Origin: a virus
Length of the DNA: 37,230 bases
Virus record (IMG/VR): IMGVR_UViG_3300023184_000296
Location: 1-37,230 of that record
Direction: 5' to 3' (one strand)
How positions within the stretch are numbered: the first letter of the stretch is position 1; every line of letters begins with the position of its first letter. Shown piece after piece: positions 1,235-31,624 of this stretch. The notes under the pieces were generated by a model. The model worked only from the letters and a program-made list of their open reading frames with translations. It made no database searches and was not told where the DNA came from. Position numbers and translations under genes: made by a program.

Positions 1235-1282
1235 GACAAGTCACCCGCTAGCCCTCAAACAAGGGCTAGCGGGTGACTTGTC
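1235..1282. promoter_or_regulatory. Perfect 21-bp inverted repeat (hairpin) between two early genes
   Basis: The arms are 1235-1255 and 1262-1282, with a 6-base loop CAAACA at 1256-1261, and every base pairs. The right arm touches the stop codon of the leftward gene 1281-1469. No T-run follows on either strand, so it does not look like an ordinary intrinsic terminator. Each arm contains a smaller palindrome-like unit (GGTGAC-AA-GTCACC on the left). A transcript stabiliser, an RNase III-type processing site, or a replication or packaging structure are all possible. Confidence 0.85.
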
Positions 1283-1469
1283 AAAGGGTTGTAGAGGTTG
1301 CGATTAAACGCGTCTGCATGTGCGCCGGATATGAATTAAAAATCTGACATAGTGTTATGTCGTCGGCGACTAGCTCAGTGGCTGCAATGACGGCCTGAAT
1401 AGCGCGGAATTCAGTTTCAGCGTCTACGATGTACTGTTGACGGTTTGCGGCAATGATGTACTTTGTCAT
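1281..1469 (-). CDS. Hypothetical 62-aa early protein
   Basis: The start chosen is the ATG at 1467-1469. It overlaps the previous stop as ATGA and has GGGG seven bases upstream; a longer in-frame extension to 1556 lies inside the upstream gene and has no such support. The product begins MTKYIIAANRQQYIVDAETE. The segment DAETEFRAIQAVIAATELVA suggests a beta hairpin followed by a helix. No motif is recognised. The stop codon abuts the 21-bp hairpin. Confidence 0.65.
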   Translation of the reverse strand: MTKYIIAANRQQYIVDAETEFRAIQAVIAATELVADDITLCQIFNSYPAHMQTRLIATSTTL

Positions 1470-1699
1470 ACTGTTACCCCATAAAATTCTTTGCCGCGAG
1501 CTTGGATCTGCTTGTTGGCTATGTCGTGCATCGTCCAGCAGTCTCTGTTGCCCCAATACGCGGCCTCCTCGTCGCTGTCTACGATGCTTTGCACTTCACG
1601 GGTAATTAACACGTTATGCACAATGTCAGAATTACGCGGAAACTGGTAATGCAACCAGTTGCTAAAAAAATTCAGGTATTCGGCGCGAGTTGATTTCAT
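1466..1699 (-). CDS. Hypothetical 77-aa protein, first gene of the leftward early operon
   Basis: Starts MKSTRAEYLNFFSNWLHYQF with AGGA seven bases before the ATG. It is the promoter-proximal gene of the operon that reads leftward through the map junction. The protein is polar with tryptophans and aromatic residues (AAYWGNRDCWTMHDIANKQI) and no signal peptide or membrane segment. Being first after the origin-side promoter makes an early, host-directed role plausible, but that is inference from position alone. Confidence 0.65.
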   Translation of the reverse strand: MKSTRAEYLNFFSNWLHYQFPRNSDIVHNVLITREVQSIVDSDEEAAYWGNRDCWTMHDIANKQIQARGKEFYGVTV

Positions 1700-1730
1700 G
1701 GTGTTTTCCTTTGGTTAATTTACTGAACTC

Positions 1731-1759
1731 TCTATATATACATGAGAGAATCGTGCCAA
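1731..1759 (-). promoter_or_regulatory. Candidate leftward early promoter
   Basis: On the minus strand TTGGCA (1754-1759) and TATAGA (1731-1736) are separated by 17 bases, close to a sigma-70 pattern. The -10 box lies inside a short inverted repeat (CTCTC at 1729-1733, GAGAG at 1744-1748). It sits 32 bases upstream of the first gene of the leftward operon. No transcript data are available, so this is a sequence match only. Confidence 0.45.
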
Positions 1760-2000
1760 CTCTTGCAAGTGATTGATTTACATAGTATAGAAAAAACCCT
1801 ATGTAAGGGAATTACTTACAAATATGTGGGTAATGTGGGTTTGACGTGGGTTAGTGGCATGACCCACGGAATAGCTATATGGGGCTTGATAATTTTCATG
1901 TTGTGGACTATGTACCCATTATTTTAGAAGATGTTAACTGTTGAATTAGATGTAATACTATATAGCTATATAACCATGTATATGGGCGGCGACCGCAAAA

Positions 2001-27455: not shown

Positions 27456-27676
27456 TCGCGGGCTCTGATTGCTGCTCCTACCGCGCCCATAAAAGATGCT
27501 TTTGTGTGTTTATCTGCAATTTGCGCGCACGCTTCCCGTTCTTTAGCCGCCACCAGTTTGGCAAACGCTTCAAGCATTTCCATTGGCACACCATCAACAT
27601 CAGCTTTGCAAAATTCATCTTCAATTTCGCGGTAATACATACCCGCTTCAATTGCTAATTGTTTTAATCCACTCAT
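27446..27676 (-). CDS. Hypothetical 76-aa protein
   Basis: ATG 27676 has AAGGAG seven bases upstream and overlaps the methylase stop as TGATG, which favours it over the TTG three bases earlier. The segment LVAAKEREACAQIADKHTKA matches a helix (AAxEREACAxIAD) very common in small phage proteins of unknown role. Its last codons overlap the helicase start by 10 bases. Confidence 0.7.
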   Translation of the reverse strand: MSGLKQLAIEAGMYYREIEDEFCKADVDGVPMEMLEAFAKLVAAKEREACAQIADKHTKASFMGAVGAAIRAREWS

Positions 27677-28668
27677 CAATTTGCTCCTTTGTTTATAATT
27701 TCTGTTTCAAGATATGCCTCTATGAAGGCTTGCGCGACTTGCGGGACGATGGCATTACCGTAGGCGCGCAAACGTCCCACTCTGGCGGTAGCCCCATAAG
27801 CCAACGGGAATGTGCTGGGTTCAACTGGGCGGGTTTTTCCGTCTTTACAGTCAATCCAATCGGCGGCTGCCCAAAAGCCAGTTGTGCCGTTACGTCCAAC
27901 GTGTCCGTGCTGATCTTGCCGTCCCTCATGCGCCCCCCCACGTACCCACCCTTGTGATCCCGCGTCGATGTCGTCGGCCAACTCGCTAGATTGGCGGCTA
28001 CTGTTAACGGCAGTCCCCCTTGCGCGTATGGTTTCGTCCGATTTGACGCGGAGTCTACTGTCGGCGTCGGCCAGCTCGCTAAGTGAACCTCGTCCCTCAG
28101 TTTGTACTTGCCCGCTGTGCCTGGGCGTATCTCCATCACCCCCCCCTCGCCGTCTGACCGCTGGGGACTGCGCCACGAAGTACAGTCGGTGTCGGATATG
28201 CGGCGCACCGACGCCCGCAGCAGGGATACCCGCAGCCCCAAGGATGTAGTTTTCTCTTTCCACGTCAGATTGAACAAGGTCGAGCCATCCGTACTTAATT
28301 GCGCTTTCAACTTGTTCGCCAAAAACAACGTCAGGTCGGCACTGCTTGATAAGCTCAAACCAGACTGGCCACAAGTGGCGTTCGTCGCTTGTGCCTTCTC
28401 CATTACCGGCAACACTAAAGGGTTGGCACGGGCAACTACCTGTCCAAACAGATCGACTATCAGGCCATCCTGATTGACGTAATGCGTGGCTCCAGACTCC
28501 AATACCCGCAAAGAAATGGCACTGGGTGTACCCTGTAAGATCGCTTGCCTTGACATCCACAATACTCCTTGTATCAACATCGCCAGACGCAATGTGACCC
28601 GCGTCAATTAAATTCCGAAGCCACTGCGCGGCATACGGGTCTATTTCGTTGTAATAGGCTTTAGCCAT
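27676..28668 (-). CDS. DNA (cytosine-5) methyltransferase (330 aa)
   Basis: Transfers a methyl group from SAM to cytosine in DNA, often to escape host restriction. Motif I is HFFAGIGVWSHAL (51-63), motif IV is PCQPFS (80-85, catalytic Cys), motif VI is GEQVES (117-122, in place of ENV), motif VIII is RHRLYF (159-164), and motif X is GNAIVPQVA (304-312). The stretch YNEIDPYAAQWLRNL precedes motif I, as in other phage enzymes. Residues about 165-265 are low-complexity (ELADAD repeats); the same DNA is read in another frame by the overlapping gene. Overlaps the nuclease gene by 28 bases. Confidence 0.92.
   Translation of the reverse strand: MAKAYYNEIDPYAAQWLRNLIDAGHIASGDVDTRSIVDVKASDLTGYTQCHFFAGIGVWSHALRQSGWPDSRSVWTGSCPCQPFSVAGNGEGTSDERHLWPVWFELIKQCRPDVVFGEQVESAIKYGWLDLVQSDVERENYILGAAGIPAAGVGAPHIRHRLYFVAQSPAVRRRGGGDGDTPRHSGQVQTEGRGSLSELADADSRLRVKSDETIRARGTAVNSSRQSSELADDIDAGSQGWVRGGAHEGRQDQHGHVGRNGTTGFWAAADWIDCKDGKTRPVEPSTFPLAYGATARVGRLRAYGNAIVPQVAQAFIEAYLETEIINKGAN
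27720..28556 (-). CDS. WPTP-repeat protein encoded in an alternate frame inside the methylase gene (278 aa)
   Basis: Read in a different frame of the same strand as the methylase, fully inside it. ATG 28556 has AAGGAG eight bases upstream. The text is not random: the order DLFGQVVA, TCGQSGLSLSSSADL, STLFNLTWKEKTT, LLRASVRRISDTDCTSW, SWPTPTVDSASN, SWPTTSTRDHKGG, NPAHSRWLMGLPPEW and PSSRKSRKPS matches, from memory, a protein family often annotated beside phage C5 methylases. The WPTPT units and the methylase ELADAD units come from the same bases. Function unknown; a specificity or anti-restriction partner is possible. Confidence 0.7.
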   Translation of the reverse strand: MSRQAILQGTPSAISLRVLESGATHYVNQDGLIVDLFGQVVARANPLVLPVMEKAQATNATCGQSGLSLSSSADLTLFLANKLKAQLSTDGSTLFNLTWKEKTTSLGLRVSLLRASVRRISDTDCTSWRSPQRSDGEGGVMEIRPGTAGKYKLRDEVHLASWPTPTVDSASNRTKPYAQGGLPLTVAANLASWPTTSTRDHKGGYVGGRMRDGKISTDTLDVTAQLAFGQPPIGLTVKTEKPAQLNPAHSRWLMGLPPEWDVCAPTVMPSSRKSRKPS

Positions 28669-30876: not shown

Positions 30877-30922
30877 TCTTCCTGATGCCGCGTGACAGGC
30901 GGCATTGGAAAGGGGACACAGT

Positions 30923-31624
30923 ATGAAACACGTTATTGGTTTGAGCGGCGGTAAGGATTCAACAGCATTGGCGCTTCGTCTGATGGAAGTTGAGCCGCGC
31001 GAATATGAACTGATCTGCAACGCCACCGGCAATGAGTTGCCAGATATGCTTCAGCATTGGGCCACGCTGGAGCAGATACTAGGTTTGCCTATCAAACGAG
31101 TTGGCCACACGACTGACTTGTATGGTTTGATTGATGAGCAGCAGATGTTGCCCAACTTTCGCGCCAGATGGTGCACTCGCATTCTGAAGATTGAGCCGAC
31201 TATCAAATACTTTGAAACGCTGCCTGAAGGCTCAGTGCTGTACGTTGGCCTTCGCGCTGACGAAGAAGCGCGGCGCGGCATCTACGGCGAAGACATGAAG
31301 ATTCGCTTTCCCATGCGTGAGTGGGGCTGGAAAGAAGCAGACGTGTGGGAATACTTGGCCAAGCGTGAAGTCACCATACCCCGCCGCACTGACTGCGCCG
31401 TGTGCCCGTACCAACGTCTAGGCGAATGGCGTGATTTGTGGCGTGACTATCCTGAAGAGTACGCCAGAGGCGTGGCCATTGAAGAAAAGCTCGGCCACAC
31501 ATTCAGGTCGCCCCAGCGCGACACTTGGCCCGCGTCCCTCAAAGAGTTGGCCGTTGAGTTTGAAAGTGGGCGCAAGATTCGCGGCGAAGGTAAAGTACCA
31601 ACGTGTAGGGTTTGCTCATTGTGA
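30923..31624 (+). CDS. PP-loop, PAPS-reductase-like enzyme (233 aa)
   Basis: N-type ATP pyrophosphatase with the PP-loop SGGKDST at residues 8-14. Cysteines: W-C at about residue 84 (ARWCTRILKIEP), DCAVC with CP at about 156-161, and C-R-V-C near the end. This plan (PP-loop, WCT, C-x2-C) is found in PAPS reductase-like and DndC-like sulfur-transfer enzymes, which can carry an Fe-S cluster. Start ATG 30923 (GGGG upstream) rather than TTG 30905. The stop overlaps the polymerase start, so a DNA- or tRNA-directed sulfur step is as likely as sulfate metabolism. Confidence 0.85.
   Translation: MKHVIGLSGGKDSTALALRLMEVEPREYELICNATGNELPDMLQHWATLEQILGLPIKRVGHTTDLYGLIDEQQMLPNFRARWCTRILKIEPTIKYFETLPEGSVLYVGLRADEEARRGIYGEDMKIRFPMREWGWKEADVWEYLAKREVTIPRRTDCAVCPYQRLGEWRDLWRDYPEEYARGVAIEEKLGHTFRSPQRDTWPASLKELAVEFESGRKIRGEGKVPTCRVCSL

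Follow-up and report, generated by a model that had tools for sequence, protein, structure and literature searches.

The window is a 37,230-nucleotide virus record that encodes portal, head, and terminase proteins, as well as a DNA polymerase and a primase. Its phage replication region also contains a phosphoadenosine phosphosulfate reductase-like gene (positions 30905 to 31624, plus strand; phrog_424, 1.8e-39). A compact run of overlapping open reading frames (ORFs) on the minus strand starts with a VRR-NUC-like nuclease (28922-28641) and continues with a C5 methylase of 330 aa (28668-27676; phrog_363, PF00145), a 77-aa ORF (27679-27446), and a helicase (27455-26133). Nested within the methylase gene, in the +1 frame of the minus strand, is a second ORF of 278 aa (27720-28556; phrog_1008), which starts with the ATG at 28556 and ends with a stop codon at 27722-27720. 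This frame is open up to a TTG at 28607 (28607-27720), 295 codons encoding 295 aa. The Shine-Dalgarno (SD) sequence AAGGAG (28570-28565, minus strand) is located 8 nt before the ATG. An earlier note on this DNA had given the coordinates and characteristic texts of both ORFs correctly, and had rightly described the 278-aa frame as open and preceded by an SD.

The outer frame contains motifs I (CHFFAGIGVWSHAL), IV (TGSCPCQPFS), VIII (GAPHIRHRLYFVA), and X (VGRLRAYGNAIVPQVAQAF; 27724-27780, minus strand), along with a motif VI-like VVFGEQV, so that all five motifs listed in the earlier note can be located. It matches phrog_363 with an E value of 1.5e-81 and PF00145 with one of 7.8e-13, the latter in residues 75 to 167 only. 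In a comparison of profiles with solved structures, its profile matches M.HhaI across positions 71 to 172. The sequences SCPCQPFS (motif IV) and GAPHIR.R (motif VIII) are invariant or nearly so among 31 relatives, as expected of a catalytic C5 methylase chain, and motif X of the outer chain reads VGRLRAYGNAIVPQ, with G304 and N305 invariant in the same 31 relatives.

The nested protein matches phrog_1008 (6.3e-31), phrog_31772, and, weakly, phrog_27243. It has no match in Pfam or NCBIfam and no HNH match in Pfam, NCBIfam, or PHROGs, and its N-terminal block resembles nothing known in Pfam, NCBIfam, PHROG, and structure profile searches. The search of its profile against solved structures matched nothing, and its structure model, built from a 54-sequence alignment, is poor (pLDDT of 55); both results count against the split-enzyme reading favored below. 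The sole confidently modeled part comprises residues 71 to 117 (pLDDT of about 75 to 90), a helix and β-hairpin block (LTWKEK...LRAS; 28206-28346, minus strand) encoded by the same bases as methylase motifs VI to VIII, where both frames are constrained. It is followed by the target-recognition region (27874-28170, minus strand), which consists of WPTP-type modules in the nested frame and of a hydrophilic linker (LADAD...) in the methylase frame. Thus, SWPTPT (28076-28059, nested) and ELADADSR (28077-28054, methylase) are two readings of identical bases, just as the earlier note had observed. The fraction of hydrophobic residues is 0.158 in the methylase linker and 0.328 in the methylase core, compared to 0.212 in the nested reading of the linker bases; since this is just moderately above the linker value, the argument from hydrophobic content is weak. 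The nested C terminus, which overlaps methylase motif X, includes an equivalent of motif IX (QLNPAHSRWLMGLPPEWD; 27774-27827, minus strand), identified in the census of motif IX frames described below. The first base of each nested codon is the second base of a methylase codon, which places the methylase wobble base in the middle of the nested codon.

Relatives of this locus were gathered from bacterial genomes and IMG/VR (best 80 loci per scan) with the methylase protein alone, so the second frame was not itself a selection criterion. The inner nested frame has no stop codon in 150 of these 157 relatives (74/79 bacterial-genome loci and 76/78 viral loci), a set that, being the best 80 per scan, is biased towards the relatives of the window. 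Synonymous codon shuffling within each gene, which draws on that gene's own codons, predicts about 3 (3.05) stops per gene in the nested frame. The other overlapping frame contains about 10 to 27 stops in most relatives, and stops in the nested frame are concentrated just beyond the boundaries of the nested ORF. Ordinary C5 methylases served as the negative control: the 19 retrieved with PF00145 have 12.5 stops in the corresponding frame, against 13.3 expected, and none of them has it open. In the reverse search, all 15 Enterobacteriaceae loci picked by phrog_1008 alone carry an overlapping methylase frame, which for these loci answers the question posed in the earlier note of whether homologs of the nested protein always overlap a methylase. 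In the codon-shuffle test of distant pairs, the nested frame is above the null in nearly all, but so, to a lesser degree, is the control frame; hence, this test is supporting only. At this locus, dual coding is established with about all the certainty that sequence data can provide.

Two loci deserve separate mention. In a close relative of the window (L003 and L011, on the same contig), the methylase frame is broken near codon 216 (position about 780) and both frames shift, through either sequencing error or decay. A bacterial genome locus found with the general PF00145 profile (L484) encodes a 220-aa methylase (1270-1932, minus strand) with a nested frame of 196 aa (1284-1874, minus strand) that contains WPTP and AMGFP texts.

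The start signals of the nested gene are also conserved, if unevenly. Of 154 window-class relatives, 64 use AGG or AGA for the Arg at the SD site, compared to about 17% elsewhere, and the nested ATG after the SD site is present in 110 of 157. A complete SD and start at the conserved site are found in just 75 of the 157 relatives, which counts against the reading favored below. In the other, Firmicutes-like classes, an SD precedes the nested ATG in 32 of 41 cases versus a background of 21%. Nested ATGs that lack an SD include those of Bacteroidetes-like members; Bacteroidetes hosts seldom use SDs.

The positions at which substitutions accumulate show which of the two frames is under selection in each part of the gene. 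Substitution pairs were picked greedily, not on a tree. Upstream of the overlap, the pattern is ordinary, with rates of 0.124, 0.077, and 0.437 at methylase positions 1, 2, and 3, respectively. In mid-gene, position 1 becomes the most variable one in all three separate classes (3/3). Among 65 independent alignable segments between motifs VIII and X, those of 80 to 90% identity differ at 25%, 8%, and 5% of methylase positions 1, 2, and 3, and those of 70 to 80% identity differ at 42%, 18%, and 10%. Since methylase position 1, which varies most, is the wobble base of the nested codon, it is the nested protein that is conserved in this stretch. The window itself differs from its nearest relatives in the recognition region in the same manner, with 17/2/1, 20/5/0, and 18/5/2 differences at positions 1/2/3 in the comparisons with L002, L001, and L006, respectively. 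In the motif X overlap, both frames are constrained, with rates of 0.149, 0.098, and 0.184 at the three positions.

The rate of methylase-synonymous changes declines along the gene, being 0.330 upstream of the overlap, 0.242 in the stretch of motifs IV to VIII, and 0.071 in the recognition region, and over motifs IV to VIII, but not before the overlap, replacements in the nested protein are milder than expected. The proposal of conserved dual coding in the earlier note is thus strongly supported, both by the open frames in 150 of 157 relatives and by the constraint on methylase-synonymous sites; the observations named there as contrary to it, stops throughout the second frame or normal third-position variation, were not encountered among the relatives. 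In the recognition region, nested-synonymous changes swap methylase residues almost freely, yet no methylase-frame stop is seen in 821 opportunities (0/821), which argues that both products are needed and both frames must be read. Here, the nested protein is the one selected, and the methylase frame is little more than a passenger, required only to remain open; of the two frames read, only the nested one carries much information. The earlier suggestion that the recognition region of the methylase co-evolves with a second protein therefore needs to be revised, as in this region selection acts on the second protein, with methylase position 1 being the most variable.

A similar division is seen for motif IX. 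Its core was sought before motif X as [LM][QM]G[FYWL]P, with a few substitutes allowed. It is found in the +1 frame of 355 of the 374 nested-class relatives and in the methylase frame of 8 of the 374, which is the chance level, whereas the main frame contains it in 16/16 actinophage and 9/19 ordinary methylases. No motif IX core was found in the outer frame of the window, and motif IX and a selected recognition domain do not occur together on that chain. As the outer protein has neither of the two, the nested protein supplies both, and since it carries the motif IX that is absent from the methylase frame, it is probably the half that this enzyme lacks and not an unrelated protein. In one further locus (L494, minus strand), the methylase frame, 462 aa in length, has CxxC pairs (CAVCNTET... 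and CPVCAGVG) in an insertion that immediately precedes motif X, and the nested frame stops just after motif IX; by analogy, this may be a homing-type insertion like those described previously (PMC11855218).

Actinophage methylases serve as an internal control. In these proteins, the stretch between motifs VIII and X contains PTP modules and LAPAFSEWMMGWPAGW in the methylase frame, and in the module region the methylase wobble base is free (0.132, 0.092, and 0.360 at positions 1, 2, and 3). Just upstream, over about 98 codons where the nested frame is still used, it is position 1 that is free (0.224, 0.031, and 0.031). Profile-profile comparison matches the nested modules to the in-frame modules of actinophages with an E value of 4e-7. 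Selection that follows the frame, together with this match, indicates that modules of one kind are under selection in either frame, depending on which of the two encodes them. In gp70 of the Mycobacterium phage ShiLan (L261, 1321-2490) and in L348 to L363, only the first part of the nested frame survives; further on, the PTP modules and motif IX are encoded in the methylase frame, which amounts to a change of frame within the gene.

Distant phage methylases were gathered with those of Paenibacillus phage Bloom, Lactobacillus phage Lc-Nu, and Mycobacterium phage ShiLan. The nested frame of the Bloom and Lc-Nu classes typically becomes open at about codon 51 to 59 and continues to near the end of the gene, and phage methylases of Firmicutes type and Bacteroidetes-like ones retain the open frame even at a GC3 of 0.30 to 0.45. 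The typical nested product has an M..EQLTLF..D start, an LTWK block, WPTP modules, and an LNP.WVEWLMG.P.GW end, with the number of recognition modules varying among relatives. Annotation of these genes is inconsistent: both ORFs are deposited for K1ind2, Xanthomonas phage PhiXhv-18, and Paenibacillus phage Bloom, only the nested ORF for PMG1 and Cr-LKS3, and only the methylase for N15. In N15 gene 58 (L086, 2004-2999; “possible cytosine methylase”), the nested frame is open for 242 codons up to motif IX, and stops delete the N-terminal part found elsewhere. The families phrog_363 and phrog_1008, and the “Mte8-like protein” of K1ind2 and K1ind3, correspond to the two frames described here, and their records are annotated as two methyltransferases or as hypothetical proteins. 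No statement uniting phrog_363 and phrog_1008 as one split enzyme was found. Nor was an account of the nested frame found in the literature, an absence that is weak evidence, as most subscription journals were outside the coverage.

The arrangement of motifs and the pattern of selection suggest that the locus encodes a naturally split C5 methyltransferase in two overlapping frames, with the nested half acting in trans (probability of about 0.8). Translation of the outer frame would produce a catalytic polypeptide with motifs I to VIII, a hydrophilic linker at the usual place of the recognition domain, and motif X. Ribosomes would also start at the internal SD and ATG, yielding a +1-frame polypeptide composed of a putative N-terminal docking block (encoded by the bases of motifs IV to VIII), at least one WPTP-type recognition module, and motif IX. 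The two polypeptides might then assemble into a heterodimer, in which the nested one would provide DNA target choice and motif IX in trans. The phage could benefit by having its own DNA methylated against host restriction. It is also fairly probable that this arrangement defines a widespread family of phage methyltransferases, in which the halves of one active enzyme are encoded in two frames, exchangeable target-recognition modules evolve within the nested frame, their bases encoding a neutral linker in the outer one, and the modules have moved to the outer frame in actinophages.

Several other explanations merit consideration. Annotation pipelines frequently call shadow frames, and the nested ORF could be one of these, kept open by mere codon bias and strong methylase conservation; the other overlapping frame, which is likewise above the null in distant pairs, is in line with such a view. 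Nevertheless, the synonymous shuffles lead one to expect about three stops, the nested frame is open even at a GC3 of 0.30, ordinary methylases are not open, and the methylase wobble base is the least variable base in the recognition region, a pattern that no shadow yields. On the grounds of the shuffles, the low-GC relatives, and the position-specific substitutions, this explanation was rejected and its probability is negligible. Unlikely, although less so, is a real but separate nested protein, e.g., an anti-restriction or regulatory one, overprinted on the methylase by happenstance. Dual coding by itself is no proof that the products cooperate, and the lack of recognizable relatives of the nested N-terminal block would fit such a protein. 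Against it, what is missing from the methylase frame, namely motif IX and a recognition domain under selection, is supplied at exactly that place by the nested frame, with a motif IX and modules homologous to the in-frame ones of actinophage methylases.

Programmed frameshifting, from frame 0 to +1 after motif VIII and back before motif X, would produce one ordinary single-chain methyltransferase. It would account for the selected frame running 0, +1, 0 along the gene and would restore the canonical order of motifs I to VIII, recognition region, IX, and X, which actinophages have in a single frame. However, it requires two shifts, and the nested frame has its own conserved starts and is already open and under constraint over motifs IV to VIII, well before the point at which the shift would occur. 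Nor does frameshifting need a stop-free methylase frame in the recognition region, where none of the 821 opportunities gave a stop. These observations make it very unlikely.

A split C5 methyltransferase in two overlapping frames would not be without precedent. The gene for the small polypeptide of M.EcoHK31I lies within that for the large one, in a different frame, and M.EaeI is a further two-polypeptide C5 methyltransferase of this kind. M.EcoHK31I is naturally split (PMC3439449), its large polypeptide carrying motifs I to VIII and X as well as the predicted recognition domain, and its small one motif IX (PMC3404938). Judged by published motif placement, it is the nearest precedent, as motifs I to VIII and X on the large chain and motif IX on the small one are found here as well. 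In contrast to M.EcoHK31I, selection on the recognition region is here in the nested frame and not in the large polypeptide, which counts against the split-enzyme reading; on account of this placement of the recognition region, the locus is not classed as a member of the M.EcoHK31I type. Furthermore, no restriction enzyme was recognized adjacent to it, the number of modules varies, and phages of many bacterial groups share the arrangement. In M.AquI, the distal recognition region and motif IX are on the small subunit and the catalytic motifs on the large one (PMC3404938), a division between a smaller and a larger chain that resembles the one seen here. However, M.AquI has motif X on the small subunit, whereas here it stays on the large polypeptide, so that the locus does not fit the M.AquI type, and here one gene is nested inside the other. 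Another second protein in a different frame of a phage methylase gene is the ShiLan domain, an HNH endonuclease hidden out of frame in the methylase gp65 as a mobile homing insertion (PMC11855218). Unlike that domain, the nested protein described here is not an HNH endonuclease but appears to be an old part of the methylase itself.

If the split-enzyme reading is correct, phrog_363 and phrog_1008, which databases handle as separate or competing annotations, would be one enzyme, and methylases annotated from a single frame would be studied without the half that determines their specificity. The family is also an example of overlapping coding, sampled in depth, where a switch of the dominant frame can be followed along the gene and loci with a moved frame provide an internal control. 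The origin of overlapping gene pairs would thereby become testable; in this case, a recognition domain apparently moved out of the reading frame of the enzyme to which it belongs, or back into it.
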